Below, one piece after another: positions 1,183 through 64,000 of a DNA stretch of 64,000 nt. Source of the DNA: Actinokineospora inagensis DSM 44258 (GTDB taxonomy: Bacteria > Actinomycetota > Actinomycetes > Mycobacteriales > Pseudonocardiaceae); the NCBI RefSeq assembly GCF_000482865.1, contig NZ_AXWW01000033.1, positions 1 through 64,000 of the forward strand, written 5' to 3'. Every line of letters begins with the position of its first letter. Position 1 is the stretch's first letter. The notes beneath the pieces are model-generated. The model was not told the origin of the DNA and searched no databases. It saw nothing but the letters and a program-made list of their open reading frames with translations. The translations under genes were made by a program, and so were the position numbers.

Positions 1183-1461
1183 CGGCATCTCCCCGACTCG
1201 ACGTGACAGATCAGTAAGAGGGATAGTGGTCGAGATTCCGCGGCCGCGCCAGGGGCGACCACGAGGCCCACATCACGGCCCGTGGTCTATGAGGTGGGAA
1301 CCGAGAGATCCGTTCGGATGGCAGATGCGAGCCTGGTCGGCAGCAGCGCGGGGGAGCACCGACTCGTACAGGTACCAACTCACCAAGATCCGCCCGTACT
1401 GCCCGGCGATCGGGAACATCGCGCTCCCCAAGCCCGACCGCGTTCAACGCCGCCCCACCGC

Positions 1462-1618: not shown

Positions 1619-1639
1619 CCGATCAAAAACCCGGGGCAC

Positions 1640-1917
1640 GGCCGACCACTTGTCGAGCCGAACTGTGCCGGCTCACCGTTGATGTTCACGGCCGGATTCC
1701 TGCGAGGCGAGGAAGACGTAGGCCTGGGCCAGTTCGGCGGGCCGGCCGGCCGGCCCAGGGGGGCTTGCGCGTCGAAGGACTCTACTTTGTCCGGAGGGCA
1801 TGGTGGCCGGGATCAGCGGTGTCCACACCGGACCGGCGCCACCGACTTCACCTGGATCCTGCGGTCGGCCAGATCCAGCGCCAAGCCCTTGGTGGAGTTG
1901 ACGATCCCGGACTGCCT
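1640..1917 (-). pseudogene. remnant of short-chain dehydrogenase/reductase C-terminus
   Basis: Three successive reverse-strand frames together spell an SDR C-terminal third: GIVNSTKGLALDLADR..IQVKSVAP (1908 to about 1834), then after a shift GPVWTPLIPATMP and RPAELAQAYVFLASQES (to about 1690), then after another shift NINGEP..FGSTSGRP. In intact SDRs these are the helix after the catalytic Tyr/Lys, the PGP(V/I)xTPLIP loop, and the PAELAxAYVFLAS segment before the GxxxxVxGG end. The Rossmann N-terminus and YxxxK are missing. At least two frameshifts make it a pseudogene. Confidence 0.65.
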
Positions 1918-2303
1918 GCCCATCAGCGCACACCTCGCCGCATCACCGCGAAGTTCGCCACCCAGTGGTGGCGATGGTTGTTCTTCGCCCGAGGCGCGCA
2001 CGCTCGGCGAGGTGCACTCCGGGGGGTGGACAACCGCATACCCGGACACGGTGGCAGACCGCGTTGCCGATGAAACTGCTGCGCCAGGGCATTGAAGAAC
2101 ATGGCACCGTGTGCATCTGTGGCCGGGAAGACATGCGCGCTCCGCAGGTTTCGACAGGGCAAGGATCGAGTCCGCGGACGCCGAGGAGCCAGTGGTCACC
2201 AGGGGAGCTGTGCAGAAGGAGGTACCGGGGTCCGGCAGGGCCCAGGTCGTGCAAGGTCGACGGCTGCAGGCGATCGTGTGGCCAGGCGGCAGTGTGGGAC
2301 AGG
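1918..2303. other. no recognisable gene
   Basis: Between the SDR remnant and the end of the lectin-like gene at 2304 I see no frame with a convincing start, ribosome site and codon bias. The stretch probably holds further decayed coding DNA, possibly the missing SDR N-terminal part, but no motif is clear. Confidence 0.4.
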
Positions 2304-9536: not shown

Positions 9537-10976
9537 TCAGGAGTCCGGCAGGTCCGTTCCCCGGCCGCCCCGGCGGCGCGCGCGTCCGCCCCCGACCGCC
9601 GGGTCGTCCCAGGACTGCAGTCCCACGACCACGTCGAGCCCGCGGGGCGTGACGTCCTCGAAGGTGAGCGTGCCGCCGACCGAGCCCATCAGCGTCGAGG
9701 CGATCGCCAGGCCCAGGCCGGATCCGCTGCGGTCGCCCTGGCCGCCGCCGCGCCAGAACCGCTCGCAGGCCCGCTCCTTGTCCGCCGCGGACATCCCCGG
9801 GCCCTGGTCGGCCACGTGCACCGCCACGCCCGTCTCGCCGACCTCCGTGCGGATCCGCACCGTGCTGCCCACCGGGGCGATGTGCAAAGCGTTGTCCAGC
9901 AACACGTCCAGCACCTGGTCGAGCACGTCCGGGGCGCACGAGGCCGGTGCGGGCGGCCCGGTCAAGGTGAGCCGCACCCCGAGCCTGCGGGCCGCGGGGC
10001 TCCAGAGGTCGACGCGTTCGCCCGCCACGGCGTGCGCGTCCATCCGGACCGGGTGGATCTCCCTGGCCTCGGTCCGCGCCAGCGAGAGCAGCGCGTTGAC
10101 CAGCCCGGCGAACCGGCGGGCCGCCACGATCGCCCTGTCCAGCTCGCCCCGGCCCGCCGGGTCGACGAACGGTTCGAGGTTCTCCACCCGCAACCGCAGC
10201 GCGGTCAACGGGTTGCGCATCTGGTGCGCGGCGTCGGCGACGAAGTTGCGCTGCGCCTGCGACAGCGCCGTCAGCCGATCGGCCATCGTGTTGACGGCGC
10301 GGCCGAGCCTGCGGATCTCCGGCGGTCCCGCGTCCACCGGGGCCCGCGTGCGCAGCCTGCCCGCGGCGATCGCCGCCGCGGCCACGTCGAGGCGGCGGAT
10401 CTGCCAGGCGAGCCCACGGCGCAGCAGGCGACCGGACACCAGCACGCAGGCCAGCAGGGCGAGCGCGCCGCAGGTCAGCAGGGCAAGGCGGACTCGGGCC
10501 TGATCGCGCAGGGCGGTGGTCGGCGAGACGGTGACCACGGCGCCGAACACCGCGGCACCCCACCGGACCGGCTCGACGACGACCAGGGGTTCGGCGTCGA
10601 AGACACCCGAGTTGTCCGGCGGCACACCGGTCCGCGCGCCCGCCAGCGCCCGCTCCACCTCCCCGTGCCAGCGCGGGTCGAGCCCGGTCAGGCCCGCGGG
10701 GACCGAGTCCACGACCGTTCCCCGGGTGTCGAGCAGCAGGATCGCGCCGCCGTTGGCCCGCTGCCGGGCCGACATCGCCTCCCGGGTCGCCGCGGCGTCC
10801 TCGTGGCGCACCAGGGTCGGGGCGGCCTGGCCCGCGAGGGCGCCGGTGTCGTCGACCCGGTCGAGGGTGAACCGCTCGAACGCCGCCGTCGACAGGCCCA
10901 GCGCGATCGCCGCCGCGAGGGACAGCACCAGCGCGCCGATCAGCACGAGGAGTGCAGGCGTCCAGCGCCGGGGCAC
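9537..10976 (-). CDS. sensor histidine kinase, HAMP-containing
   Basis: 479 residues: TM1 about 7-29, extracytoplasmic sensor about 30-160, TM2 about 163-183, HAMP, then the kinase core. H-box His251 in AAHQMRNPLT, N-box LLDNALHIAP, G1 DQGPGM, G2 GSGLGLAI, all intact. Membrane-bound autokinase paired with the response regulator ending 7 bases upstream. GTG start. The signal is unknown. The basic C-terminal tail (GGGRARRRGGRG) is unusual but may be only low complexity. Confidence 0.9.
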   Translation of the reverse strand: MPRRWTPALLVLIGALVLSLAAAIALGLSTAAFERFTLDRVDDTGALAGQAAPTLVRHEDAAATREAMSARQRANGGAILLLDTRGTVVDSVPAGLTGLDPRWHGEVERALAGARTGVPPDNSGVFDAEPLVVVEPVRWGAAVFGAVVTVSPTTALRDQARVRLALLTCGALALLACVLVSGRLLRRGLAWQIRRLDVAAAAIAAGRLRTRAPVDAGPPEIRRLGRAVNTMADRLTALSQAQRNFVADAAHQMRNPLTALRLRVENLEPFVDPAGRGELDRAIVAARRFAGLVNALLSLARTEAREIHPVRMDAHAVAGERVDLWSPAARRLGVRLTLTGPPAPASCAPDVLDQVLDVLLDNALHIAPVGSTVRIRTEVGETGVAVHVADQGPGMSAADKERACERFWRGGGQGDRSGSGLGLAIASTLMGSVGGTLTFEDVTPRGLDVVVGLQSWDDPAVGGGRARRRGGRGTDLPDS

Positions 10977-10983
10977 CGGGGGC

Positions 10984-11673
10984 TCAGCCCCGCTCGACGG
11001 GCGGGGTGCTCTCGGCGCCGGTGAGCCGGAACCCGACCCCGCGCACGGTCTCGATCCGGTCCGCGCCGCCGAGTTTCGCCCGCAGCGAGCCGATGTGGAC
11101 GTCGAGGGTGCGGGTGGAGCCGAACCAGTTCTCGTCCCACACCGCGTCGATGATCTCCTCGCGGGTGCGCACCGCGCCGCGGTCGTGGGACAGGAACAGC
11201 AGCAGCTCGAACTCCTTGCGGGTCAACGCGAGCTCGACGCCGTCGAGGGTGGCGCGCCGGGTCCGCGCGTCGATCACCAGCCCGGCCACCGGCTCGCCCG
11301 CGGTGGTCTCGTCCGACCCGGCGGTGCGCACCCGCCGGGTGACCGCGTCGATGCGGGCCAGCAGTTCCCGGAACCCGTAGGGCTTGATGACGTAGTCGTC
11401 GGCGCCGATCCGCAGGCCGAGCACCCGGTCGATCTCCTCGGCTCGGGCGGTGAGCACGATGATCGGGACGTCGGAGGCCGCGCGCAGCCTGCGGCAGACC
11501 TCGTAGCCGTCGAGATCGGGCAGGCCGAGGTCGAGCAGGACCAGGTCGGGCGGTTCGGCCCGCAGCGCCTCCCCGCCGGTGGCGACGTGCCGCACGACGT
11601 GCCCGTGCCGGGTGAGCCCGGTGACCAGCGGGTCGGCCACGTGGTCGTCGTCTTCCACCAGCAGGATCCGCAC
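10984..11673 (-). CDS. OmpR/PhoB-family response regulator
   Basis: About 229 residues: receiver domain (VRILLVEDDDHVADPL, phospho-Asp in LLDLGLPDLDGY, Lys in YVIKPYGF) and C-terminal winged helix (LTRKEFELLLFL, VDVHIGSLRAKL-type strand, RGVGFRL). It binds DNA as a phosphorylation-dependent dimer. GTG at 11673 is chosen because GGGGA lies five bases upstream; GTG at 11685 is possible. It forms an operon with the kinase at 9537-10976. Confidence 0.9.
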   Translation of the reverse strand: MRILLVEDDDHVADPLVTGLTRHGHVVRHVATGGEALRAEPPDLVLLDLGLPDLDGYEVCRRLRAASDVPIIVLTARAEEIDRVLGLRIGADDYVIKPYGFRELLARIDAVTRRVRTAGSDETTAGEPVAGLVIDARTRRATLDGVELALTRKEFELLLFLSHDRGAVRTREEIIDAVWDENWFGSTRTLDVHIGSLRAKLGGADRIETVRGVGFRLTGAESTPPVERG

Positions 11674-11836
11674 GAAGGTCCCCACTTCGTCGTCGTCCGG
11701 CCACCACCTCGGGGCGGCGCCGTCCGGGTCCGGTGGCCACTGGTGATGGTACCCAGCCGGGACGGCCGCGCGCTGGCGTTCGCGCCGGCCGTTTCCCGCC
11801 TGGACAAGCGTTGTCGGTGCGCCACCGTGACCGGGG

Positions 11837-12097
11837 TCAGGCCCGTGGGCCGCGGCAGGAGGTCAGGATCGCCGAGGCCAGCGCGGTCCCGGGCTTGCCG
11901 AGCTCGCCGCTGTACCGCTTGAGGACGCTGATCTCCCGGGCGTTGTGCAGCCGGGGTTCGCCCGCGTCCACCCGCGCCTGTTGCACGCCCGCGGCGGCCT
12001 GCTGCCGCTCGCGGACGAGACGGATGATGGTGCCGTCGATGCTGTCGATCACCTGTCGGCCGCTGTCGACCTTGGTGGTCAGTGTGCTGTCGGTCAT
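11837..12097 (-). CDS. chorismate mutase type II (AroQ-like), monofunctional
   Basis: 86 residues, all helical. The AroQ fold signature is present: RQVIDSIDGTIIRLVRER, then a QQARVD..EPRLHNAREISVLKR segment supplying the other active-site residues. It would convert chorismate to prephenate or, in secondary pathways, aminodeoxychorismate to its prephenate analogue. Being free-standing inside a cluster of unusual enzymes, it probably serves a specialised aromatic precursor. GGAGG lies 10 bases before the ATG. It is 59 bases downstream of the formyltransferase-like gene on the same strand. Confidence 0.8.
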   Translation of the reverse strand: MTDSTLTTKVDSGRQVIDSIDGTIIRLVRERQQAAAGVQQARVDAGEPRLHNAREISVLKRYSGELGKPGTALASAILTSCRGPRA

Positions 12098-12156
12098 GGG
12101 TTTCGAGCCTCCAGTGGCGTTCGGAGCAGTGGGGGACAACGGGATCCGGGTGGTGC

Positions 12157-13131
12157 TCAGCCGCTCGCGCCGAGGTCCAGGGCGTCGAGCAGGGCCGGGA
12201 CGTTGGTGACCGTCAGGCGCTCCTCTGGCTCGGAGTCGGCCCCCAGCCCGAGGCTGGTGACCGCGAGCCAGCCGTCGGCGGCGCGGATCGCCAGGACGCC
12301 GTGGCCGAACACGCGCAGCTCGCCCGGGTCGCCGAGGTCCTCGGCGTGGCCGGGCATCGCCTCCGCGGAGAGCACCCGGAAGGTCGACCCGGAGGAGGTG
12401 ACCGCGAGCGCGCCGACCTCGGCCGAGCAGGCCCGCACCGTCCGCAGCACCGCCTCGACCGGCTCGTCCCAGTCCAGGGTTCGGTCCTGCGCCCGCGGCT
12501 TGCCGAAGTACGTCCGCGCCGCGCCGTCCTGGTCGGTCAGCTCGACCGCCCCGGTGATCAGGGCGGGCAGCACGTCGTCGAGCAACTGCCAGGACGCCTG
12601 GAAGTGCAGGTCCATGATGCGCCGGGCGGTCTCGGTGCCGTTGAGCACCACGCGGCGCTGGGCGACCAGCGGGCCGCCGTCGATCTCCGGGGTGGTCCAC
12701 ACCATCGACGTGCCGCCCGCGCGCTCGCCGTTCTTGGCCATCCAGAAGAAGGGCGCGAGCCCCGCGTAGCGCGGCAGCGGACCGGGGTGCAGGTTCACCG
12801 TTCCCCGCGCCGGGACGGCGAGCACCGGCTCGCGCAGGATCAGCCGGTAGTTCGCGATCATCAGGTAGTCCGGGGCCAGCTCCCGCAACCGCTCGACCAG
12901 CTCGGGGTCGTTGACCTTGGCGGGCCGCAACACCGGGATGCCCGCCGCGGCGGCGGACTCGGCCACGTCGACCGGATCGGGGTCGTCGGCGTAGTACTCG
13001 CACAGCACGCCGGGCTCGCGGGTCACCACGGCCACGACCTCGACCCCGGGGTACTCCACCAGCCTGCGCAGCACGGGGGCGCCGAACTTCGAGTTGGTCT
13101 CGGTCAGCAGGACGATCCGGGTCGGGGTCAC
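12157..13131 (-). CDS. formyltransferase-like protein (Fmt/ArnA-type)
   Basis: About 324 residues. N-terminal formyl-transfer Rossmann domain with the substrate motif TVNLHPGPLPRYAGLAPFFW (the family's N-x-H-x-S-LLP..RG element) and the catalytic-Asp strand TTPEIDGGPLV. A C-terminal Fmt_C-like beta domain follows. These enzymes transfer a formyl group from N10-formyl-tetrahydrofolate to an amine. It is not the housekeeping Met-tRNA enzyme by context: it overlaps the E1-like gene by four bases (GTGA) and sits in a biosynthetic-looking cluster. The sugar, amino acid or peptide acceptor is unknown. Confidence 0.8.
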   Translation of the reverse strand: MTPTRIVLLTETNSKFGAPVLRRLVEYPGVEVVAVVTREPGVLCEYYADDPDPVDVAESAAAAGIPVLRPAKVNDPELVERLRELAPDYLMIANYRLILREPVLAVPARGTVNLHPGPLPRYAGLAPFFWMAKNGERAGGTSMVWTTPEIDGGPLVAQRRVVLNGTETARRIMDLHFQASWQLLDDVLPALITGAVELTDQDGAARTYFGKPRAQDRTLDWDEPVEAVLRTVRACSAEVGALAVTSSGSTFRVLSAEAMPGHAEDLGDPGELRVFGHGVLAIRAADGWLAVTSLGLGADSEPEERLTVTNVPALLDALDLGASG

Positions 13132-14012
13132 CTGGCCCACCACGCGCGGTCGACCAGCTTGGCCGTCCAGGTCAGCGAGTCGAAGACGGCGTAACCGGGC
13201 TGCACGGGCAGTTCGGCCCCGCCGGGGATCCCCATGATGTCCTGGGCGAGCCGCTCGACGAGCACGCCCTCGGCCAGCGGCGGGCAGGCGCCGAAGATCG
13301 GCATCTTGCCCAGCTCGACGAACCAGTGGTCGAGCGCGGCCGGGCCGGGGAACTCGGGCAGCTCCGGCATGATCCGCTCCATCAGCCTGCGCACCACCGC
13401 CGGGGTCATCTCGGCGTCGGCCGGCAGGTCGTAGACCTCCTCGATCTGCATGGAGTCCTTGGTGTACTTGAAGATGAACGTCGAGTGCGCCACGGTCGGG
13501 ATCTTGTACATGAACCGGCAGCGCTCGGCCGCGCGGAACGCGCGGTGCAGCGCGTAGCGGTTGGCGATCTGGAAGAACTCCATCTGGTCCATCACGTAGT
13601 CGCAGCCGTCGACGAACTCCGCCGCCGACTCCGGGGTGATGCCCTCGGGGAAGACGTCGATGTTGACGTCCCCGGTCAGGTCGTAGGCCATCTCGGCGAC
13701 CACCTCGGCCTTGTTGCGGCCGATGGTGTCGCGGGCCGCGCCGACCTGGCGCTGCACGTTGGTGAGGTCGAACCGGTCGGGGTCGGCGAGCTTGAGGTTG
13801 CGGGCGCCCATCCGGACCAGGCGCAGGGCCACCGCGCCGCCGATGCCGCCGGTGCCGACGACGCCGATCACCGCGTCCCGCAGCAGTTCCTGCCTGCCGC
13901 GCTGCTCGGCGGGGGTGGTGCCCAGCCAGCCCAGGTTGCGGTCGACGCGCTCCCAGTAGAACTCGTCGTCGTACTCCCCGCGGTAGAGCTTGCGGTTGAC
14001 CGTCTGCGTCAT
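13128..14012 (-). CDS. E1/ThiF-like adenylyltransferase
   Basis: 294 residues. ATP-binding E1 signature IGVVGTGGIGGAVALRLVRMG, then ADPDRFDLTNVQRQ (the D..N..RQ element) and NKAEV lysine. No CxxC zinc pairs are seen, unlike MoeB/ThiF; Cys candidates lie in DGCDYV, AERCRF and FGACPP. E1-like enzymes adenylate a carboxylate, classically the C-terminus of a ubiquitin-like protein or, in MccB-type pathways, of a peptide. No partner ubiquitin-like protein or peptide gene is obvious nearby. GGAG lies seven bases before the ATG. Overlaps the formyltransferase gene. Confidence 0.82.
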   Translation of the reverse strand: MTQTVNRKLYRGEYDDEFYWERVDRNLGWLGTTPAEQRGRQELLRDAVIGVVGTGGIGGAVALRLVRMGARNLKLADPDRFDLTNVQRQVGAARDTIGRNKAEVVAEMAYDLTGDVNIDVFPEGITPESAAEFVDGCDYVMDQMEFFQIANRYALHRAFRAAERCRFMYKIPTVAHSTFIFKYTKDSMQIEEVYDLPADAEMTPAVVRRLMERIMPELPEFPGPAALDHWFVELGKMPIFGACPPLAEGVLVERLAQDIMGIPGGAELPVQPGYAVFDSLTWTAKLVDRAWWAR

Positions 14013-14245
14013 GGTGGATCTCCGGGATCTGCTCGGGTGAGCGGGATTCGGTGTGCGCGGCGGCCGTTCTCGTTGTCCGTGACCGCTTCCGTGCCGTCCG
14101 TGCCTTCCACCACTGACGCTACGGATCGTCCCCGCAACGGCCGGACAACCCGGCGGCAAGGGAACGTCAGCTACCGCAGCGGGTTTCCCCGTGCTGACCG
14201 GAAAACGGCGGTCGCGAAGGGGAATCCTGTTCGGGACCGCCGTAC

Positions 14246-14977
14246 TCAGCCGCCCGCGGGTTCGGCGAGGTCCTCGGCGGGCCGGAACCCGAAGGCGGTG
14301 TCCAGTCCGCGTGAACCCTCCGCGCTGATCCGCACGGCCCGGTGGCGTACCGGGGACCGCGTGACCCAGCCCAGGTCGAACAGCCGCGCGGCCAGGGCGG
14401 CACCCAGCCCGCCCGCGAGGTGGTGGCGGCGTTCGCTCCAGTCCAGACACGCGCGTGCGAGCGGGCGCCGCGCACCCGCCAGCCGCGAGCACCGCACGCC
14501 GAGGGGCGCCCGCGCGTCCCATTCCGCCGCGTCGACGGCGAACCCGTCGTCGGTGCGGCGTAGCAAACCCTGGCGCCACAGGGAATCCGCGAGTCGCACG
14601 CCCAGCTCACCGGCCAAGTGGTCGTAGCACATCCGGGCGCCGCCGAGCGCTGCCAACTCGCGTGAGGTGCGCAGCGAGTGCGGCCGCCGGTGCGGGGCGA
14701 TCACCGCCAGCGCCTCCAGCGCGCCCGCCACGTCGGCGCTCGCCATCCGGTAGTAGGTGTGCCTGCCGCACCGCTCGGTGACCAGCAGGCCCTGCTCGAC
14801 CAACCGGGACAGGTGCTCGCTGGCCGTGGACCGGGAGATCCCGGCCAGCAGGGCCAGTTCGCTCGCCGGGAGGGCGCGGTCGTCGGTCAGCGCGGTGAGC
14901 ATGGCCAACCGGGTGCGGTCCCCGAGCAGGCCCGCGACCGCGGCGATGTCGGGTCCAGACGGTCCGGTCCCGGTCAC
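14246..14977 (-). CDS. ArsR/SmtB-family transcriptional regulator, extended
   Basis: 243 residues. N-terminal winged helix typical of ArsR proteins (LLGDRTRLAMLTAL, LPASELALLAGISRSTASEHLSRLVEQGLLV, GRHTYYRM). The protein continues about 140 residues beyond the ~100-residue minimal family, a common actinobacterial architecture in which the extra domain may sense a ligand. Metal-binding cysteines of ArsR/CadC are not present in the recognition helix. It lies 28 bases downstream of ridA on the same strand, so it is probably made from the capA-type promoter and autoregulated through the palindromes at 16706-16803 (inference). Confidence 0.82.
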   Translation of the reverse strand: MTGTGPSGPDIAAVAGLLGDRTRLAMLTALTDDRALPASELALLAGISRSTASEHLSRLVEQGLLVTERCGRHTYYRMASADVAGALEALAVIAPHRRPHSLRTSRELAALGGARMCYDHLAGELGVRLADSLWRQGLLRRTDDGFAVDAAEWDARAPLGVRCSRLAGARRPLARACLDWSERRHHLAGGLGAALAARLFDLGWVTRSPVRHRAVRISAEGSRGLDTAFGFRPAEDLAEPAGG

Positions 14978-15005
14978 CGCCGCACCCCGTCCACCCGGCC
15001 GGACC

Positions 15006-15440
15006 TCATGGCGGCGGGACGGCCGCGACCGCCTGGACCTCGACCAGCAGGCCCGGCAGCGGCAGCCCGCTGACCGCGACCGTGGTGCTGGCGACGAGCA
15101 CGTCGCCCAGCAGTCGGGAGCGGATCTCGAAGAACCGCGCGCTGTCGCCCATGTCCACCAGGTAGACCGTCATGGACACCAGGTGCGCCGCGTCCGTCCC
15201 GCCCGCCCGCAGCGCGGCGAGCACGTTGGTCAGCGTGCGGGTGGCCTGGTCGTCGAAATCGCCGCTCGGCACCCGGTAGTCGGTGTCGATGCCCATCTGC
15301 CCGGCCAGGAACAGCAACCCGCCCGCGGCCACCGCGTGCGCGTAGCCGAACCGGCGCGGGTCGCCCAGACCCGGGACGTCGACGTGCCGGGTGACCGGGT
15401 TCAACGGAGTCGGCCCGGTCGTCGGGGTTGGCGGGGTCAT
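15006..15440 (-). CDS. RidA/YjgF family protein
   Basis: 144 residues of the YjgF/RidA fold: FGYAHAVAAGGLLFLAGQMGID, QATRTLTNVLAALRAGG, VSMTVYLVDM, ASTTVAVSGLPLPGLLVEVQAVA. RidA members hydrolyse reactive enamine/imines; cluster-borne versions often process pathway intermediates. The usual catalytic Arg of the RidA subfamily is not evident in the C-terminal VSGLPLPG segment, so a non-deaminase subfamily is possible. The start overlaps the upstream capA-like stop by four bases (ATGA), indicating translational coupling. Confidence 0.82.
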   Translation of the reverse strand: MTPPTPTTGPTPLNPVTRHVDVPGLGDPRRFGYAHAVAAGGLLFLAGQMGIDTDYRVPSGDFDDQATRTLTNVLAALRAGGTDAAHLVSMTVYLVDMGDSARFFEIRSRLLGDVLVASTTVAVSGLPLPGLLVEVQAVAAVPPP

Positions 15441-55396: not shown

Positions 55397-55559
55397 CCCC
55401 ACCCCACCCCCACCCCCACCTCCTCCACCTCATTCCCGCCCCCAAATCCCCCCACGCTTCATCAACAAATCCCCACACTCGCCCCGCGCGCCAAACCCAC
55501 ACCCTCATCGACGACGCACCACTCCCGTACCGCGCCCCGAGAAACCCCCACGCAAATCG

Positions 55560-55855
55560 ACGAAGTCCCACACCGGCACCGCGCGCCTCGAAACCCGCCG
55601 ACACCAACCGCCCGTTGTGGTGAAGTTGTTTTGTTTGGGGGGAGCGGTGGCCTAAGCCGGCTGGCGGGTAAGGCCACGCTTTCCAGTGGCCCCGCCTTTT
55701 TGCCTTACCCAGGCTGCCGCTAGGGGCCCCAAACAAAACAACTTCACCACAACGGGCACCCCAGCTTTAATCTGGCGCCCAAGCGCCGGCGTCGCCGAAG
55801 GCGACCAGGCCGACCCCCGAGGCGCAGCCGAGGCCCAGTGCCCCCTCACACCAAC
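55560..55855. repeat. left arm of ~300-bp inverted repeat, with 146-bp palindromic element
   Basis: The core, 55611-55756, is bounded by perfect 30-bp inverted repeats (55611-55640, starting CCCGTTGTGGTG, and 55727-55756), with inner partial palindromes. The whole core reappears in reverse complement at 60095-60240 with a few mismatches, and similarity continues on both sides: outward (about 55560-55610 matching 60241-60290) and inward (55757-55855 matching about 60000-60094). The arms contain T-rich stretches such as TTGTTTTGTTTGGGG that are foreign to the local composition. The preceding stretch 55397-55559 is C-rich, low-complexity and holds no gene; 55856-56011 leads to the peptide gene. 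Confidence 0.85.
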
Positions 55856-56011
55856 CCCCAATAAACGTTGGCAGGTAAGCTCCGCAGCTCCAGAAAAACG
55901 AAGATTCCCGCCACAAGCCACAACACCGGCACCTTCAGCCAGCAGCCTTGGATCTCGCCCACCCCCCCGCTAACGTAAAAAGTCCGAACACCATCAAAGG
56001 AGGCACACCTC

Positions 56012-56140
56012 ATGCCTAATCCCGCCGAGCTGCAAGAACTGCTCACCGCCATGGCCGAGTCCGAGCCCGCACCCGAGCAGAGCACCGCCGAGCAGCGGAC
56101 CGAGTTCGGAATCATCGCGTGGTACCTCAACACCCGGTGA
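56012..56140 (+). CDS. 42-aa candidate RiPP precursor peptide
   Basis: AAGGAGG eight bases before the ATG is the strongest ribosome site in the window. The peptide opens MPNPAELQELLTAMAE, an acidic amphipathic helix suited to a leader, continues with a Glu/Pro/Gln-rich linker, and ends TEFGIIAWYLNTR. The aromatic cluster AWY near the C-terminus resembles the cross-linked cores of P450-modified peptides (tryptorubin-type cores contain AWYIWY; biarylitides and cittilins use Tyr/Trp pairs). It is followed by a perfect hairpin, then peptidase, P450 and exporter genes on the same strand. No Cys, so lanthipeptide or sactipeptide chemistry is excluded. Confidence 0.75.
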   Translation: MPNPAELQELLTAMAESEPAPEQSTAEQRTEFGIIAWYLNTR

Positions 56141-56162
56141 TCTCGGGTTGCCCATGAGCAGT

Positions 56163-56197
56163 GGCGGCTCCTCCGGCCCACAACCGGAGGAGCCGCC
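56163..56197 (+). terminator. 14-bp perfect hairpin between peptide and enzyme genes
   Basis: GGCGGCTCCTCCGG (56163-56176), a seven-base loop, and the exact complement (56184-56197) lie 22 bases after the peptide stop and 39 before the next ATG. No U-run. A leaky terminator or an RNA-stabilising stem at this position would give more precursor than enzyme, a frequent RiPP arrangement. Confidence 0.75.
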
Positions 56198-56236
56198 AAA
56201 GATCGTCACTTCAGCCGCTATTCCTGGGGAGCAACA

Positions 56237-57379
56237 ATGACTGCGCAGATGGTCGATGAGCGTGTCTTCGAGGGTGTTGACGCGTTGTTGGACGATTTCG
56301 TGGTGATCACCGATGAGGACACCGTCGTGGTCACCTACACGCCGGACAGCCGTGAGCCCGCCGCCTGGGTCGCGCTCGGTCTCAAGCACCGCGGTTTCAC
56401 CGCCGCCATCGTTCCCATGCTCCCGTTGCAGGACGAGAGCTTCGCCGGGCGGCTCGCCGAGGCGCTGCCGGACCGGTCCGCGGTGCAGGGCCGGTTGGTC
56501 ATCATCACCCTGGAGCGGGACACCATGTCGCACTTCGAGGTGCTCCAGCCCATCCTGCGCGACTACGGGCCGGACAAGACCATGATCCTGCGAATCATCA
56601 GCGCGTCCGCTGACTTCTTCACCAAGGCGCTCAATGTCAGCCCTCTGGAGTTGTCGGCGCTCAATGCCACGTTGCTCCACCGGGTCAACAGCGCCAAGCG
56701 GGTGCGGGTGACGACCTCCGGCGGAACTGACATCACCGTTGAGCTCGACAGCGAGAAGTACCAGTGGATCAGCAACCGAGGTGTGTGGCGCCCCGGTGGC
56801 TTCACCATCCTCCCCGCTGGGGAGATCGCCACTTACCCGGTCACTGTCGAAGGGGTCCTGGTCGCCGACGGCGCGTACAACGCCAACATCATCAGTGACC
56901 TGAACGCGAAGCTGGCCGACAACCCGGTCCGAGTCGAGATCGAGGCCGGAAAGGCGCGTGATCTCACCTGCGCCAACCCGGAGCTCCAAGAGATGTTCCG
57001 GCTCTGCCTGGACAGCCCGAATGGCCGCAATGTCGGCGAGTTCGGGCTCGGCACGAACCACGGTATCAACGAGTACATCACCACGAACTCCCATATCAAC
57101 GAGCGCCGGTGCGGTCTCCACCTGGGTTTCGGGCAACACAACCAGAGCTTCTCCCGCGTTGCCTACGCGGCCTATGCGCACCTGGACCTGATCTGTGACG
57201 GTGGTCTGATGTGGATAGACGACGACGTCGACCCCATTGACCTGTCACATGTCGAGCCCATTGACGTTCCCCACCCGGTCGACGCGCTCGACGAGGACAT
57301 CACGGGCGACTGCTGCGGCATGGGGTACCGCCAACTGAGGGGGCTCTCGGAGGACCCGACCTGCGCGGTTCCCCAGTAG
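56237..57379 (+). CDS. M29 aminopeptidase-like protein
   Basis: 380 residues. The C-terminal half resembles M29 (aminopeptidase T/PepS) metallopeptidases: GVWRPGGFTILPAGEIATYP, VEGVLVADGAYN, NVGEFGLGTNHGIN, HINERRCGLHLGFGQHNQ, where Glu and His of GEFGLGTN and LHLGFG sit at positions that bind the two metals in the family. The N-terminal half is less conserved. In this cassette it could trim the leader or the core peptide, or have been recruited for another step. GGGGAG lies seven bases before the ATG. A C-terminal CC pair (GDCCGMGY) is unusual. Confidence 0.7.
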   Translation: MTAQMVDERVFEGVDALLDDFVVITDEDTVVVTYTPDSREPAAWVALGLKHRGFTAAIVPMLPLQDESFAGRLAEALPDRSAVQGRLVIITLERDTMSHFEVLQPILRDYGPDKTMILRIISASADFFTKALNVSPLELSALNATLLHRVNSAKRVRVTTSGGTDITVELDSEKYQWISNRGVWRPGGFTILPAGEIATYPVTVEGVLVADGAYNANIISDLNAKLADNPVRVEIEAGKARDLTCANPELQEMFRLCLDSPNGRNVGEFGLGTNHGINEYITTNSHINERRCGLHLGFGQHNQSFSRVAYAAYAHLDLICDGGLMWIDDDVDPIDLSHVEPIDVPHPVDALDEDITGDCCGMGYRQLRGLSEDPTCAVPQ

Positions 57380-57486
57380 CAGAAGGCAATTGACCGGGAC
57401 CGTCCAGGCGCGCGCAGCGGCCGAACGGCCGTTCGGTCCACCTCTGAACGGCCGTTTCGTCCCACCTCCGAGGGGAGAGTTCCGAA

Positions 57487-58722
57487 GTGGTCAACCCGCC
57501 CACGGACGACACCGGTCCGCGACCATTCCCCATGCCGCGGTCCTGCCCGATGCGCCCGCCGGACCAGTACGCCGAGCTGCGCGCCGGGGCACCGCTCGCA
57601 AAGATCACCCTGCCCAGCGGGCGGACCGCCTGGTTGATCACGCGCTACGAGCACGTCCGCCGGTTCCTCACCAACCGGAATGTCAGCACGAACCGGCTAC
57701 ACCCCAACTTTCCCTTCTACCTCCCGTTGTCCCGAAAACTGGTGGAAGACGTCAACGCGTCCCTGATGAGCCTGGACCCGCCGGAACACACCCTGCTCAC
57801 CCGGATGGTGATCCCCGAGTTCACCCACAAACGCACGCAGGAACTGCGGCCCCGCGTGCAGAAAATCGTGGACGACCACATCACGACCATGCTGACCGGC
57901 GATCGGCCGACCGACCTGGTGGACGCTCTCTGTCGCCCGATCACCTCGCAGGTCATCTGTGAGGTGATCGGCGTCCCCTACCACGATCGCGAACTCTTCC
58001 AATCGACCAGCAAGGTGATGGCCAGCCGGAACAGCAGCTCGCCCGAACGCTACGCGGCGGACGCCATGCTTCGGGACTACCTCCGCGATCTGGTTGCGGC
58101 GAAGGCGAAGGAGGCCGAGTCGGGTGCCGCGCCGGGCGACCATCTGATCGGCCGGGTCATCGCCAAGAACCAGAAGCAGCGTGTCCTCCGCCAGGAGGAC
58201 ATCGCCGCGTTGTGCCTGGCGCTGCTGAGCGCCGGGCACGAGACCACGGCCAACGTGATCTCACTCGGGACCGTGCTGTTGCTCGAAAACCCCGAGCAGC
58301 TCGCCGCGATCCGGGCCGACCCGGCGCGCACCCCGGGCGCGGTGGAGGAGATCCTGCGCCACACCAGCATCACCGACCCGAGTGGGCTGCGGGTGGCGCT
58401 GGCCGACATCGAGGTCGGCGACATGGTGGTCAAGGAGGGCGACGCCGTTGTCGTGTCCACCGCGGCGGCCAACTGGGATGACAGTGTCTTCGCCGAGCCG
58501 GAGAAACTCGACTTCGACCGCGACGCGCGGCATCAGCTCGCCTTCGGCCACGGCATCCACCGGTGCATCGCCCAGAACCTGGCCCGGGTCGAACTGGAGA
58601 TCGTGTTCAACACCCTGTTCGCCCGGGTTCCCAGTCTCCGGCTCGCCGCCCCCGTCGAGGAACTGTCCTTCAAGGATGGCGCGCTCCTCTACGGCATCCA
58701 CACCTTGCCCGTCACCTGGTGA
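57487..58722 (+). CDS. cytochrome P450
   Basis: 411 residues of a bacterial class I P450. Proline-rich opening, I-helix oxygen motif AGHETT (about 249-254), K-helix EEILR, and heme loop FGHGIHRCIAQNLAR with the axial Cys near 360. Soluble; needs ferredoxin and reductase from elsewhere, as none is encoded here. In the context of the peptide AWY motif the likely reaction is oxidative coupling of aromatic side chains (C-C, C-O or C-N) rather than hydroxylation; this is inference. GTG start with AGGGGAGAG upstream; 107 bases after the peptidase gene. Confidence 0.92.
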   Translation: MVNPPTDDTGPRPFPMPRSCPMRPPDQYAELRAGAPLAKITLPSGRTAWLITRYEHVRRFLTNRNVSTNRLHPNFPFYLPLSRKLVEDVNASLMSLDPPEHTLLTRMVIPEFTHKRTQELRPRVQKIVDDHITTMLTGDRPTDLVDALCRPITSQVICEVIGVPYHDRELFQSTSKVMASRNSSSPERYAADAMLRDYLRDLVAAKAKEAESGAAPGDHLIGRVIAKNQKQRVLRQEDIAALCLALLSAGHETTANVISLGTVLLLENPEQLAAIRADPARTPGAVEEILRHTSITDPSGLRVALADIEVGDMVVKEGDAVVVSTAAANWDDSVFAEPEKLDFDRDARHQLAFGHGIHRCIAQNLARVELEIVFNTLFARVPSLRLAAPVEELSFKDGALLYGIHTLPVTW

Positions 58723-58752
58723 GAAGATGCCGCCACCGAAGGGGAGGCGCGC

Positions 58753-59997
58753 GTGACGACAGGCCCAGGCCAGGTCGCAGCCGTAAAGCCTGCTGTCCGC
58801 TTGTTGGCTCCGCTGCGGGAACGGCGCTTCGCGCTGTACCTCGTCGGCCAACTGCTCTCGCAGTTCGGCGACGGCATCTACCTCGTCACACTGCCGTTCG
58901 TCGTGCTCAACCAGGGTGGCGGTCCGGCGAACCTCGGCGTGGTGCTGGCCTGCTACGGAACGGCCAGGTTGGTCTTCCTCCCGGTCGGCGGAACGCTGGC
59001 CGACCGGTTGGGCGCCCGGTCGGTGATGCTGGCCGCGGACGCGCTCCGGGCCGTCGTCGTGCTCGGATTCGTCGCGCTCGCTGCCGGTGGTCGCATTCCG
59101 CTGTGGGCCATGATTGCGGTTGCGGTCCCGTTTGGCGTCCTCGGTGGGATTTTCATGCCTGCCTCGTTCGCTGTGTTGCCGCGAATCGTGCGCCCGGAGT
59201 CGTTCGCTGCGGGGAACTCGCTGATCCAGGTCATGCAAAGCACGTCGAGGATCGCGGGGCCTGCGCTGGGTGGAACGCTGGTCGGGTCGCTCAAGAGCGG
59301 GGTGGGGCTGCTGATCGACGCGGCTACGTTCCTGGTGTCCAGCCTGACTCTGATGGCGATCCGGCCGTCCACCGTTCCGGCGGCCCCGGACGACGGCGAT
59401 CGACTGCGGACTTGGCGGTCGGTGCTGCGGTACGCCTTCGGTTCTGTCCTGGTGAGGATGACGCTGCTGACCACGCTTGTGTTCAACCTCGCGGCTGTCG
59501 GGTTGATCGAGGTCGCGCTGCCGGTCTTCGCGCGGGACTCGCTGGGGAATGGCGCGTTGGGGTTCGGAGTGATGATGACCGGGCTGGGTGTTGGCTCGGT
59601 TGTCGGGGCGCTGCTGGGGCCGGTGCTTCTCCGGCTGCGGCGGCGGGGCCTGGTCGCGCTTTGGCTTGGGGTTGGTGAGGGGCTTGCGTTGTTGAGTGTG
59701 CCGGTGGGGTCTTCGCTGGTGGTGGCGACGGGGGCGCTGTTCGTGGGGGCGTGCTTGCAGGCGGTGGTGAATGTGTTTTATATGACGATGCTTCAGCAGA
59801 CGGTGCCTGGTCGGGCGTTGGGGAGGGTGATGAGTCTGCTGGCTGGTTGTGCTGGTGTCGCGTATCCGGTGTCGGCGTTGCTTGCTGGGAGTGTGCTGGG
59901 GGTGGTTGGGGTGGGGGTTGTGATTGTTGTTGCCGGGGTGGGGGTGGTGGGGGCTTTTTCGGTTGGGTTCTTTAGTGGGGTGTACCGGAATCTGTAG
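58753..59997 (+). CDS. MFS exporter (MFS_3/TetV type)
   Basis: 414 residues, 12 transmembrane helices: FALYLVGQLLSQFGDGIYLV in helix 1, GTLADRLGARSVML motif A, and the helix 7-12 half repeating the pattern. Family members export drugs, siderophores and peptides. GTG start with GGGGAGGCG seven bases upstream, 30 bases after the P450 stop, so it is in the same transcription unit and probably exports or detoxifies the mature product. The last ~120 codons are G-rich with many Gly/Val codons, and their GC skew differs from the preceding part. Confidence 0.9.
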   Translation: MTTGPGQVAAVKPAVRLLAPLRERRFALYLVGQLLSQFGDGIYLVTLPFVVLNQGGGPANLGVVLACYGTARLVFLPVGGTLADRLGARSVMLAADALRAVVVLGFVALAAGGRIPLWAMIAVAVPFGVLGGIFMPASFAVLPRIVRPESFAAGNSLIQVMQSTSRIAGPALGGTLVGSLKSGVGLLIDAATFLVSSLTLMAIRPSTVPAAPDDGDRLRTWRSVLRYAFGSVLVRMTLLTTLVFNLAAVGLIEVALPVFARDSLGNGALGFGVMMTGLGVGSVVGALLGPVLLRLRRRGLVALWLGVGEGLALLSVPVGSSLVVATGALFVGACLQAVVNVFYMTMLQQTVPGRALGRVMSLLAGCAGVAYPVSALLAGSVLGVVGVGVVIVVAGVGVVGAFSVGFFSGVYRNL

Positions 59998-59999
59998 GG

Positions 60000-60374
60000 T
60001 GGTGTGAGGGGGCTCTGGGCCTCGCTGCGCTCGGGTTTCGGCCTGGTCGCCTGGCGGCGACGCCGGCCTCGGGCGCCAGATGAAAGCGGGGGTGCCCGTT
60101 GTGGTGAAGTTGTTTTGTTTGGGGCCCCTAGCGGTGGCCTGGGTAAGGCTAAAAGGCGGGGCCACTGGAAAGCGTGGCCTTACCCGCCAGCCGGCTTAGG
60201 CCACCGCTCCCCCCAAACAAAACAACTTCACCACAACGGGCGGTTGGTGTCGGCGGGTTTCGAGGCGCGCGGGGCGAGTATGGGGCTTCGTCGATTTGGG
60301 GGAGGTTTTTTTGAGCGCGCGGTGTGCGTGTGGGGCTTCGTTGATATGGGGTTGGGGTTTCGAGGGGCGGTGTG
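60000..60374. repeat. right arm of inverted repeat, with 146-bp palindromic element
   Basis: The core 60095-60240 is the near-exact reverse complement of 55611-55756, with identical 30-bp terminal arms (60095-60124 and 60211-60240). Inside, AGCGGTGGCCT/AGGCCACCGCT and GGTAAGGC/GCCTTACC pair, so this copy is more palindromic than the left one. Flanking similarity to the left arm extends from about 60000 to 60290. Beyond it, short G/T-rich motifs of the kind GGGGCTTCGTTGAT repeat up to the AT-ACP gene's end. No gene seen. Confidence 0.85.
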
Positions 60375-61607
60375 TTAGGTGGGGATTCGTGAGCGGAGTG
60401 TGGTGATGGTGTCGTGGAGGGAGGTTTTGCCGGTGGCGTGGTTGTGGAGGAGGGTGAGGACGTCGGGGTCTTGGTAGTCCTGGAACGGGGTGGGGGTGGA
60501 GGTTGGGGTGGGGGTTGGGGTGGGGGTGGGGGTTTGCGGGGATTGGTGTGCCAGTAGGTAGTCGGCTAGGGCGGTGCAGGTGCGGGTGGTGTGGATGGTG
60601 TCGGGTTTGCAGGGGATGTTGAAGACTGATTCGACTTTTCTGGCTATGCGGATGTAGATGATGGAGTCTAGGCCGAGGTGGCGGAAGGAGTGGGTTTCGG
60701 GGAAGGTTAGGGCTTTGTCGCCGATGAGGGGGTGGAGGACGTCTTCTCTTATTTTGGTGATGAGGGCCTGGTGGGGGGTGGGTGGGGTCTTGTCGATGAG
60801 GGTGGTCAGGACTGTGCTGTTGCCGAGTTCGACGAAAGTGGTTACGCCTGCGGTGCGGAGGTGGTGGATGGTGTCGGACCAGCGGACGGGGTGGGTGAGG
60901 TGGTTGGCGAGGGCGGCTCGGATCGCGTTGGGGTTTGGGGGGTGGGGGGTGGCGGTGACGTTGGAGATGACGGGGGTTTGGGGTGGGGTGAGGGGGATTG
61001 AGGTGAGGAAGTGGCGGTAGGCCTCAGCGGCCTGGGACATGTGCGGGGAGTGGAATGCGCCGCTGACTCGGAGGGGGATGTAGGTGGCGCCGAGGGTTTC
61101 GAAGAGGGGGCGGAGGTGGGTGATCTCTGCTCGGGTGCCGGAGATCACGTATTGGGTGGGGGCGTTGTGGTTGGCGATGGCGACAGTGGGGGAGGCGTTG
61201 GTGTGCAGTACGTTGAAGATTTCTTCTTCGGGGAGGCCGATGATGGCGGCCATGCTGCCGTCGCCTGCTTCGGCCATCAGTGACGAACGTCGTTGGACCA
61301 GGCGTAGGCCGGTGGCGAAGTCGAAGGTGCCTGCGGCGAGCAGGGCGTTGTATTCGCCGAGGCTGTGGCCTGCCAGGTAGTCGGCGGGGGTGACCGTCAA
61401 GTGGTGCAGGGCGTTGACGACGTAGATGGCGGGTTGGGCGTATTCGGTGCGGTTCAACAGGCGTGATGGGTCGGTGAGGCAGAGGTCGACGATGGAGTAG
61501 CCCAGTATTTCGTCCGCTGTGCGGCACAGGTCGGGGAATTGGGGGAAAAGGTCGCGGCCCATGCCTTTTCGTTGGACGCCCTGGCCGGGGAACACGTACG
61601 CGCGCAT
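60375..61607 (-). CDS. acyltransferase-ACP didomain protein
   Basis: 410 residues. Malonyl-type acyltransferase domain about 1-290: YVFPGQGVQRKGMG, active-site Ser82 in AGHSLGEY, His in SGAFHSPHM. ACP about 291-355 with Ser315 in HLGLDSIIYI. A Thr-Pro repeat linker (TPTPTPTPTPTS, about 359-370) leads to a short helical tail that could dock to a partner. It would load an acyl unit onto its own carrier, a starter-loading or trans-acting role. GAGGTG precedes the ATG; two bases after the KAS III-like stop. The right-arm repeat borders its 3' end. Confidence 0.85.
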   Translation of the reverse strand: MRAYVFPGQGVQRKGMGRDLFPQFPDLCRTADEILGYSIVDLCLTDPSRLLNRTEYAQPAIYVVNALHHLTVTPADYLAGHSLGEYNALLAAGTFDFATGLRLVQRRSSLMAEAGDGSMAAIIGLPEEEIFNVLHTNASPTVAIANHNAPTQYVISGTRAEITHLRPLFETLGATYIPLRVSGAFHSPHMSQAAEAYRHFLTSIPLTPPQTPVISNVTATPHPPNPNAIRAALANHLTHPVRWSDTIHHLRTAGVTTFVELGNSTVLTTLIDKTPPTPHQALITKIREDVLHPLIGDKALTFPETHSFRHLGLDSIIYIRIARKVESVFNIPCKPDTIHTTRTCTALADYLLAHQSPQTPTPTPTPTPTSTPTPFQDYQDPDVLTLLHNHATGKTSLHDTITTLRSRIPT

Positions 61608-61609
61608 GG

Positions 61610-62641
61610 TCACCTCGTGGCCCAGGAAGGGCGGTCGACGATCTGGACCACCGCGCCGGTCCAGGTGAAGCCCGCGCCGACACCAAGCAGCACGCAGTGG
61701 TCGCCGGGGTTCACCGCGCCGGATTCGACGAGGTGGCCGAGGCCGGAGATCTGGTCGCCCGCGCCGATGTGGCCGACTGTGCGGCCCCAGGACCAGGTGG
61801 AGCGGGACTCCTCGATGCCCAGGGCGAGGAAGTATTCGCGTTGCAGGACGATTCGGCCCGCGTGTGGGAGGACGAAGCGGGTGATGTCGCGGAATTCGAT
61901 GCCCGCGTCGGCCAGGGCTGTGTCGACGCAGGTTGTGAGGCCGGTGCGGAAGCGGCGGGTGAACTCGTCGAGTTCCACGTCGCCGAGGTACTGCAGTTTG
62001 CGCAGGCGCAGGTCGACGGGGCGGTTGGGGTCGCTGTGCGGGGCGAAGGGCTCGTCGCCGCGGTGGAGGCGTTCGAGGGTCGGGTCCGACACGGTGGCGG
62101 TGCTCAGGACCCGGGCGAACCCGCTGGTGCGACTGAGGACCATCGCGGTGGCGCCGTCGCCGGGGACGATGCCGATGTCGCAGTTCCAGCGGTCGATCGC
62201 GGGGAGGGAGCACTTGTCGGCGGTGGTGATCAGGGCGGCGCCGTGGTCCGACCCGGCGAGGTAGTGCGCGGCGACGTCCAAAGAGGTCATTCCGCCGTTG
62301 GAGGCGTGCTTGACCTCGAACGCGAGCGCCGAGTGGTCACCCAGTGCGGCCCGGTGGATGTAGGACGCCGTGGAGTACAGCTCCAGACCCTGGAAGTAGA
62401 TGCTGGCGTGCAGGATCAGCGAGATGTCCGCCGCGGCAACACCGGAGCGCGCCAGGGCGGTCCGGGCGGCGCTGACGGCCATGTCCGGCGGTGTCTCGTC
62501 GGTGGCCTCGCAAATGGACTCCAACTCGGTGTCCTCGGCCTCCTGCGGGTCGTACCGACCGTCGGCGACGGCCTGCTCGACCTTGGTGGCCTGCGGCAGG
62601 TACGTGCCGATACCCGCGATGTACAACTCCTGAACCTTCAC
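61610..62641 (-). CDS. KAS III-like acyltransferase with Cys-to-Ser active site
   Basis: 343 residues of the FabH fold. The nucleophile position reads VKHASNGGMTSL with Ser114 where FabH has Cys (AACSG). His260 (FVLPHAGR) is kept and the Asn position reads GHIGAGDQ (His291, Asp296). Ser and Asp in these places recall DpsC and the ChlB3/CerJ group, which select starter acyl units or move acyl groups onto alcohols instead of condensing. GTG start with AAGGAG nine bases upstream. Between the PKS gene (21-base gap) and the AT-ACP gene, so starter or acyl transfer to the loaded ACP is expected. Confidence 0.8.
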   Translation of the reverse strand: MKVQELYIAGIGTYLPQATKVEQAVADGRYDPQEAEDTELESICEATDETPPDMAVSAARTALARSGVAAADISLILHASIYFQGLELYSTASYIHRAALGDHSALAFEVKHASNGGMTSLDVAAHYLAGSDHGAALITTADKCSLPAIDRWNCDIGIVPGDGATAMVLSRTSGFARVLSTATVSDPTLERLHRGDEPFAPHSDPNRPVDLRLRKLQYLGDVELDEFTRRFRTGLTTCVDTALADAGIEFRDITRFVLPHAGRIVLQREYFLALGIEESRSTWSWGRTVGHIGAGDQISGLGHLVESGAVNPGDHCVLLGVGAGFTWTGAVVQIVDRPSWATR

Positions 62642-62662
62642 CTGCGGTGCTCCTTCTCGGGT

Positions 62663-64000
62663 TCAGACGCCGCGCTCGCGCAGCAGTGCGGCGATGGCGT
62701 CGGCGGTGGGGTAGTCGAATGCCAAGGTGGCGGGCAGTTTCAGCTTGGCGCGTGTGGACAGTCGGTTGCGGAGCTCCACCATGGTCAGCGAGTCAAGCCC
62801 GAGCGACCGCAGCGTCTTGTCCGGCGGCACTGCCTCCGGTCCGGGCAGCCCGAGCACCGCCGCCACCTCACCCCGCACGACATCGAGGACCACGGTCTCC
62901 CGATGCTCAGCCCGGGTGTCCATTGTGTCCAGAGGCGCCGTCCGCACCAGTGCCCGCAGCACCGCGGGTGGACGGGCGGCGCCGAGTGCGTGCCGCAACG
63001 AGGCCAGTTCGAGCCGAACCGGCACCAGGTACGGTTCCGGCCGGGTCAACGCCACGTCCAGCGCCCGCAGGCCCTCCTCGACGGACAGCGTGCCGACCCC
63101 TTGCCGACGCAGGCGTCCCAGCTCAGCCTTGCCCAGGTGCGCGGTCATTCCGACGCCGGACTGCTCCCACAGCCCGAACGCGAGGCTGATCCCCGCCAGC
63201 CCCCGCTTCCGCCGCCGTGCCGCCAACGCGTCCAGGCTCGCGTTCGCGGCCGCGTACCCGCTTTGACCAGCGGTTCCGACCGTGCCCGCCACCGACGAGA
63301 ACAGCACGAACGCCGCCAGGTCCAGTCGCTCGGTCAGCTCGTCGAGATGCCGCGCCCCGTCGACCTTGGGCGCCAGCACCCGGCGCAGCCGGTCCTCGGT
63401 GAACCCTGGTACCAGCCCGTCGTCCAGCACCCCGGCGAGGTGGAAGACCCCCGTCCACGACTCCTCGGAGTCCACCAGGGCGGCGACCTCATCCCGATTG
63501 GCGACGTCGCAGGCCACCACCCGCACCGAGGCCCCCAACGCCTCCAGGTCGCGCACGATCGACTCAGCCGCAGGGCCGGCGCCACCCCGCCGCGACGACA
63601 GGACGAGCCGCCGCACCCCGTACTCGCGCACGAGATGATCGGCGAGTGCCCGGCCCAGCTCACCCAGACCACCGGTGATCAGCACCGTGCCCTCGGGGTC
63701 CAGACCACGCGGCATGGTCAGCACCACCTTGCCCACGTGCCGCGCCTGTTGCATGTACCGCAACGCTTCCGGCGCGTGCCGCACGTCATAAGCCTCGAAC
63801 GGCAACGGTTCCAGCACACCCTTGTCGAACAGAACAGCCAGTTCGGTCAACATCGCGCTGAACCGCTCAGGCGGGATGTCGGTCGTGACGTCGTAGGCGT
63901 GGTATTCCACGCCTACGGGAACCTGCGACCGTAGATCCGTCTTGCCGATCTCATAGAACCGCCCGCCTTCGCGCAACAGCCGCAACGACGCGTCCGTGAA
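62663..64000 (-). CDS. modular type I PKS, C-terminal ER-KR-ACP part (partial)
   Basis: 445 codons in frame to the right edge; the N-terminus lies beyond it. The first ~110 residues are the end of an enoylreductase (LREGGRFYEIGKTDLR). KR follows: TVLITGGLGELGRALADHLV, VFHLAGVLDDG (LDD motif, B-type stereochemistry), SSVAGTVGTAGQSGYAAANASL with the catalytic Ser/Tyr. ACP ends the protein: LGLDSLTMVELRNRL. No thioesterase, and a short C-terminus after RERGV, so the chain is passed to another protein. Full reduction is predicted for this module if the upstream DH is present. Confidence 0.92.
   Translation of the reverse strand, partial: FTDASLRLLREGGRFYEIGKTDLRSQVPVGVEYHAYDVTTDIPPERFSAMLTELAVLFDKGVLEPLPFEAYDVRHAPEALRYMQQARHVGKVVLTMPRGLDPEGTVLITGGLGELGRALADHLVREYGVRRLVLSSRRGGAGPAAESIVRDLEALGASVRVVACDVANRDEVAALVDSEESWTGVFHLAGVLDDGLVPGFTEDRLRRVLAPKVDGARHLDELTERLDLAAFVLFSSVAGTVGTAGQSGYAAANASLDALAARRRKRGLAGISLAFGLWEQSGVGMTAHLGKAELGRLRRQGVGTLSVEEGLRALDVALTRPEPYLVPVRLELASLRHALGAARPPAVLRALVRTAPLDTMDTRAEHRETVVLDVVRGEVAAVLGLPGPEAVPPDKTLRSLGLDSLTMVELRNRLSTRAKLKLPATLAFDYPTADAIAALLRERGV

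Follow-up and report, generated by a model that had tools for sequence, protein, structure and literature searches.

An M29-fold protein encoded with a short aromatic peptide and a cytochrome P450 in Actinokineospora inagensis: a candidate branch of a wider family of modified-peptide gene clusters

What might a protein with the fold of M29 aminopeptidases do in a gene set whose other members are a 42-residue peptide, a cytochrome P450 and an exporter of the major facilitator superfamily (MFS)? Such a cassette lies in the 64,000-nt stretch of contig NZ_AXWW01000033.1 of Actinokineospora inagensis DSM 44258 that we analysed as a whole (the window). We consider it reasonably likely that the cassette directs the synthesis of a small secreted ribosomally synthesised and post-translationally modified peptide (RiPP), where the M29-fold protein would bind the leader of the precursor and, together with the P450, modify its core, with the product exported by the MFS protein. 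Gene linkage, peptide conservation, predicted fold and metal ligands were computed, and the docking of the leader comes from a structure model; from these we infer the role of the M29-like protein, the site and kind of modification, the protease, the export and the role of the hairpin. The elements of the cassette are as follows, and they agree with the original prediction of a peptide with a ribosome site, a hairpin and three further genes, all on the plus strand.

56012..56140, + strand: precursor open reading frame (ORF) with ATG start, 42 aa, MPNPAELQELLTAMAESEPAPEQSTAEQRTEFGIIAWYLNTR (ORF reading, strong ribosome site, conservation)
about 56162..56198, + strand: hairpin between the precursor and the M29-like gene (15-bp stem; shuffle test)
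56237..57379, + strand: M29-fold protein, 380 aa (Pfam scan, structure model, ligand alignment)
57487..58722, + strand: cytochrome P450, 411 aa (Pfam scan)
58753..59997, + strand: MFS exporter, 414 aa (Pfam scan)

The ribosome site AAAGGAGG stands directly 5' of the ATG of the peptide. The P450 and MFS products were recognised in the Pfam scan with E values of 6.5e-25 (P450) and 7.4e-31 (MFS_1). The M29-like protein scored 22.3 bits (E 6.7e-5) against Peptidase_M29 and so stayed below the curated cut-off of 27 for PF02073, for which genome G000 gave no match. No NCBIfam model was over cut-off for the peptide or the M29-like protein of the window, nor for those scanned from other loci (five precursors and four M29-like proteins).

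The precursor has an acidic helical leader (about residues 1-30) and a core ending in AWYLNTR. We compared the peptide frame of the window with that of the locus L024 (Actinokineospora terrae), a single sequence pair with 17 base differences, and obtained pN/pS values (proportions of nonsynonymous and synonymous differences) of 0.088/0.287 and corresponding rates of dN 0.09 and dS 0.36. In the core codons 30-42 there were two synonymous changes and no nonsynonymous one, and in the other two frames of the region pN exceeded pS. The peptide frame is thus under purifying selection, as judged from the sequences, and the peptide gene is real. In related loci the precursor encoded before this M29-like gene has one of the C termini AWYLNTR, AWYLDQR, AWYLATQ and AWYLDTP; AWYL is invariant across the five cores of the branch described below and the leader varies, which is the pattern of conserved AWY and changing leader that the original prediction had named as a check.

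The four genes, precursor, M29-like protein, P450 and MFS exporter, are found together in four further genomes, as would be expected if they acted as the one unit originally proposed. Identities across these loci are 84-88% for the P450, 78-79% for the MFS protein and 79-90% for the M29-like protein. The resulting P450 branch has five members (the window and L024-L027), all with AWYL cores, from two actinobacterial orders: Actinokineospora and Amycolatopsis belong to the Pseudonocardiales and L025 is from Actinoallomurus (Streptosporangiales). Since L025 comes from another order and its M29-like protein is 88% identical, the sequences suggest horizontal transfer. The linkage persists in L026 and L027 despite a rearranged gene order; both additionally carry an HExxH hydroxylase, for which the source genome has only a weak match on another contig. 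The M29-like protein occurs in 4 of the 16 genomes of the genus set, in which A. terrae (G014), A. auranticolor (G002) and A. enzanensis (G006) are Actinokineospora relatives of the source genome. At E 0.001 it occurs in 8 of 397 sampled genomes of the order (five below 1e-30, its own included). The peptide search (E 0.01) and the P450 search (E 1e-130, with four first-look candidates scored per genome) each returned the same 2 of the 397 genomes, namely its own and that of A. auranticolor, and in both the matches adjoin the M29-like gene. The co-occurrence of peptide, M29-like protein and P450 in relatives was therefore found. With a precursor beside modifying enzymes and both co-conserved, which is how RiPP gene clusters are recognised, the RiPP reading is well supported at the level of sequence.

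Species genomes were scanned with the M29-like protein, which gave 79 loci. Seventeen partial or distant ones, mostly archaeal (L078, L084, L087, L088, L090-L102), were omitted before counting, and the 62 examined together with L019 and the window make up 64 loci from actinobacteria, proteobacteria, cyanobacteria, myxobacteria, acidobacteria and others. After L069 was dropped for too little upstream DNA, 63 loci were screened for precursors. A loose rule (close 5' of the M29-like gene, a small ORF that joins an acidic leader to a W-x-[ILV] core) was matched in 36 of the 63, that is 23 of 36 actinobacterial loci and 13 of 27 others, compared to 0/63 antisense regions and 16/3186 control windows. 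This rule was drafted after reading precursors and is hence not blind; its hit in L070 is probably in the wrong frame and the start in L031 is doubtful. A strict leader expression was matched in 22/63 loci, with 3/3186 control windows, 1/63 antisense regions and 4/1260 shuffles as controls. Examples of cores are ...GGQVAWKISYSTYRA (Micromonospora), ...LMAWFVAT (Streptomyces), ...GGWEVSYKT (Nostoc), ...PPWEITWAT (Pseudomonas) and ...AAWTISYST (Sphingomonas, which has a second such core).

The most frequent neighbour clusters after the M29-like protein itself are of MFS type (22), methyltransferase type (16) and C39-ABC type (14), as counted over whole loci by single linkage and named from one representative each. 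At least 27 of the 64 loci have an oxygenase of one of four kinds (P450, PhyH, JmjC/cupin and aKG-HExxH) no farther than about 5.5 kb away, a lower bound with cluster names resting on one or two representatives each. TIGR04267 was over cut-off in two of the three aKG-HExxH hydroxylases tested and reached 39.9 against a cut-off of 40 in the third. Radical S-adenosylmethionine genes are also among the neighbours. In the drawn tree the window and L024-L027 form one branch, placed beside L028, L030, L031, L029 and L032, four of which carry PhyH.

Several loci have features of their own. The cyanobacterial locus L043 is a hybrid, with a YcaO cyclodehydratase and a ThcOx-type oxidase (11539-15193) 3' of the M29-like gene. 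The four Mycobacterium relatives (L081, L082, L083, L085) all have a distant P450 upstream on the opposite strand, and three (L081, L082, L085) have a DDAWLC precursor candidate. Sphaerisporangium perillae (L028) has two M29-like copies on one contig, 801-1931 (-) and 10001-11140 (+), with ligands intact in both, unlike the CgnB/CgnE pair discussed next.

The closest characterised system is the crocagin pathway of Chondromyces crocatus (CgnA/B/C/E). In it, CgnB and CgnE derive from the M29 fold, showed no aminopeptidase activity and bind the precursor; the 2-oxoglutarate (2OG) oxygenase CgnC hydroxylates Tyr and Trp of the precursor; and CgnB is proposed to use metals for an elimination ahead of ring closure (PMC10070186). 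By analogy, the P450 of the window may take the place of the 2OG oxygenase.

The structure model of the M29-like protein has a predicted local distance difference test (pLDDT) value of 93.0 and a predicted template modelling (pTM) score of 0.91. Its best Foldseek match is the 2,5-dihydroxypyridine 5,6-dioxygenase NicX (7cn3, E 2.1e-16; TM scores of 0.57-0.63 over three NicX rows), followed by the M29 peptidases PepS, AmpS and AmpT (E 1.5e-13 to 4.2e-12). NicX is a mononuclear iron dioxygenase; the window protein differs from it with 16% identity and in keeping the full M29 ligand set. The six ligands E196, E268, E289, H295, H315 and D317 (EEEHHD) are retained in 63 of 65 family copies, the other two coming from a contig that is cut short and a frame interrupted by stops. 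All six align with one genuine M29 peptidase, and they match in order those given for CgnB in PMC10070186 (E, E, E, H, H, D).

Because these ligands are intact, the sequence leaves room for the M29-like protein to be a protease still, and the original prediction had assigned it the trimming of the peptide. The corresponding explanation, in which the P450 cross-links Trp and Tyr and the M29-like enzyme then removes the leader, gains from the fold match to PepS/AmpS/AmpT, from the identity of the six ligands to those of the genuine peptidase, and from the fact that ORF reading and the Pfam scan revealed no other protease in the cassette. However, the family residues H286, N288 and R290 differ in the M29 peptidase compared, as does C245 (62/65 copies), all four being invariant in the family or close to it; Q303 does align with a Gln there. 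The window protein also ends in DEDITGDCCG, and DEDIxGDCCG with its CC motif is nearly invariant in a 56-row alignment (8 of the 64 loci omitted, two near-identical and six partial or with stops). The motif is missing from the Mycobacterium gastri protein, and the L020/L085 protein is without the CC tail. Comparison of the family with the one true M29 peptidase by hhalign gave an ambiguous result (E 0.0043, probability 8%). The family protein further differs from M29 aminopeptidases in its linkage to a precursor peptide and in falling below the Pfam cut-off. Moreover, it also occurs beside C39 peptidase-ABC cluster transporters (nine rows, the C39 domain being checked in the representative L043), and the related CgnB and CgnE are reported to be without aminopeptidase activity (PMC10070186). 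A role in trimming only would leave the recurrence of the W-x-[ILV] core across phyla unexplained. We regard the maturation-protease explanation as unlikely: the M29-like protein probably does not trim the peptide.

We then considered how the protein might meet its substrate. A fusion of precursor and M29-like protein, joined by reading through the intergenic DNA, was modelled with an alignment that included four close precursors. Leader residues 1-20 had mean pLDDT values of 90-93, and residues 23-77 (linker and core), partly drawn as helix, were below 50. A confident leader with a free core speaks for recognition of the leader by the M29-like protein, as support from a model and not as proof. 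The same placement would suit a non-catalytic chaperone that presents the peptide and leaves the chemistry to the P450 alone; PMC10070186 describes CgnE as recruiting substrate apparently without catalysis. Against this, CgnE has lost two of the ligands according to that source, whereas here they are retained in 63/65 copies, and there are loci in which no oxygenase was found at all. The chaperone explanation is in our judgement distinctly unlikely.

The P450 of the window shows, by eye, an I-helix AGHETT, an ExxR and a heme-Cys stretch, which we take to be the usual motifs of such enzymes. P450s occur within about 5 kb of the M29-like gene in 11 of the 64 loci; five are the window's own or 84-88% identical to it (L024-L027) and the other six, at 25-30% identity, look like separate recruitments from their sequences. 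The best named solved matches are compactin hydroxylase (2z36), P450-SU1 (2zby) and pentalenic acid synthase (4ubs); as these are by name small-molecule hydroxylases, hydroxylation is weakly favoured over cross-linking on the basis of sequence. Biarylitide precursors are MxYxW-type pentapeptides, and the 42-residue precursor of the window is not of that kind. The kinship to tryptorubin and biarylitide that had been envisaged was not borne out, and we consider it highly improbable that this is an already known type of P450 cross-linked RiPP, an atropopeptide or a biarylitide, to which an M29-like gene has been added as an accessory. A short precursor with a Trp-Tyr core and a P450 are indeed shared, and the second residue of atropopeptide cores is Trp (PMC11450843). 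Against this, the leader is without the KSLK-type motif used as criterion for atropopeptides in PMC11450843 (where the characterised atropopeptide clusters hold precursor and P450 only), the best solved P450 matches are those just named, and in 53 of the 64 loci a precursor-like ORF and the M29-like gene recur with no P450 in the surrounding 5 kb or so.

With crocagin the cassette shares a small RiPP precursor with an aromatic core, an M29-derived protein with an intact two-metal site and a partner oxygenase. It differs in the core (Y-W at the C terminus in crocagin, W-x-[ILV] and AWYLNTR here), in the leader (basic there, acidic here), in the oxygenase (the 2OG dioxygenase CgnC there, a P450 here) and in the number of M29-derived proteins (two there; no second copy in the source genome at E 0.001). 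In addition, within the stretch bounded by the two repeat arms (see below), ORF reading and the Pfam scan found no esterase, methyltransferase or carbamoyltransferase. A search for CgnB-like proteins in the family to which the Polyangium locus L077 belongs gave some match at E up to 1 in 39 of 98 genomes, and none was identified as CgnB. The single copy, the other core, the other leader charge, the P450 and a sequence kinship to CgnB that is not significant set the cassette apart from the crocagin family.

The mechanism that we propose can be put as follows. According to the model, the leader helix (about residues 4-20, with a recurrent L..[LM]...E[PSN] pattern) would dock on the M29-fold protein, which would keep the core near its two-metal site. 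The M29-fold protein and the oxygenase would then together modify the core, either at the conserved Trp of W-x-[ILV] or close to it; in the branch of the window the oxygenase would be the P450, oxidising the Trp/Tyr pair of AWYL, and in sister branches a 2OG enzyme (PhyH, JmjC/cupin) or an aKG-HExxH hydroxylase. By analogy to crocagin the M29-fold protein may contribute a metal-assisted step at the core. A protease encoded elsewhere, or perhaps the M29-like protein itself, would cut off the leader, and the MFS pump would export the product. Placed behind the precursor gene, the hairpin would keep the precursor in excess, setting the ratio of precursor to enzyme. The RNA between precursor and M29-like gene in the window has a z of -4.2 against 60 dinucleotide shuffles, and of 16 loci folded, among them the window, 14 had no more than 3 of 60 shuffles that were as stable; the exceptions are L036 (28/60) and L051 (13/60).

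More broadly, and tentatively, at what we judge to be somewhat short of an even chance, the cassette would be a branch of a RiPP class, as yet unnamed, spanning at least five phyla. The hallmark of this class would be a metalloprotein of the M29/NicX fold acting both as leader recogniser and as modifier of the W-x-[ILV] core, paired interchangeably with P450, PhyH, JmjC/cupin and aKG-HExxH oxygenases to give related Trp-centred scaffolds. Several results weigh against the mechanism proposed above. The M29-like protein is present in all 64 loci by construction, because the loci were collected with it as query. The automatic screen was empty in 27 of the 63 loci (several have a candidate by eye), and the precursors encoded ahead of the M29-like gene in the alphaproteobacterial loci L045 and L062 are mostly TYKT repeats and have no Trp, their sequences suggesting multi-core precursors. 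Many loci, for example the Sphingomonas loci L056, L063-L067 and L071, have no oxygenase of the types sought, so that an oxygenase is not obligatory. The fusion model leaves the core unplaced. With family profiles of 7 and 56 rows, CgnB (6zsv) was reached at E 0.97 at best, aligned over the metal motif, 6zsu was not among the matches listed, and neither was among the best 50 Foldseek rows; kinship to CgnB is for these reasons not shown by sequence. Finally, we know of no product or reaction for any family member found.

The cassette had also been described as enclosed by inverted repeats. The arms exist, outside the cassette proper:

55542..55783, + strand: left repeat copy (242 nt, 94% complementary to the right arm)
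60068..60309, - strand: right repeat copy (242 nt, 94% complementary to the left arm)

Each arm holds 31-nt perfect inverted repeats of its own. This palindromic repeat has 41 or more copies that reach 200 bp across the source genome, a lower bound with 40 of 215 first-look candidates scored, and diverged matches occur in seven further genomes of the genus (8/16 positive with its own). Copies often lie behind genes, sometimes as close inverted pairs, and L140-L159 also hold copies; of 25 copies inspected with crude gene calls, 19 have a gene that reads toward the left side of the repeat. As the repeat is dispersed, the enclosure says little about the cassette: two oppositely oriented flanking copies are within chance for such an element, and they are no evidence of a mobile unit. 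The repeat as boundary of a mobile element or cassette was accordingly rejected. Two further observations concern the surroundings of the genes. A second palindromic stretch, GGCCGAACGGCCGTTCGG / AACGGCCGTT, was seen by eye between the M29-like and P450 genes (about 57417-57462). Polyketide-type genes on the minus strand (60375-63985) adjoin the cassette and comprise an acyltransferase with a carrier domain, a ketosynthase III, and a ketoreductase with a carrier domain.

To our knowledge, crocagin is the only case worked out biochemically in which a protease fold has been converted to binding, and probably modifying, a peptide. In the open-access papers searched, M29-derived RiPP proteins surfaced only through that system; PMC10070186 reports single-copy CgnB/CgnE homologues, mined candidate precursors and about 100 genomes with homologues, and some of the present loci may be in its supplementary homologue lists. 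The family supplies many single-copy members in compact clusters, the smallest of which seemingly consist of a precursor, the M29-like protein and a methyltransferase only, so that the chemistry can be isolated. The P450 branch, with five members of four genes each, is a ready target for heterologous expression, and the swaps of oxygenase type around one partner are a natural experiment in the diversification of RiPP pathways.

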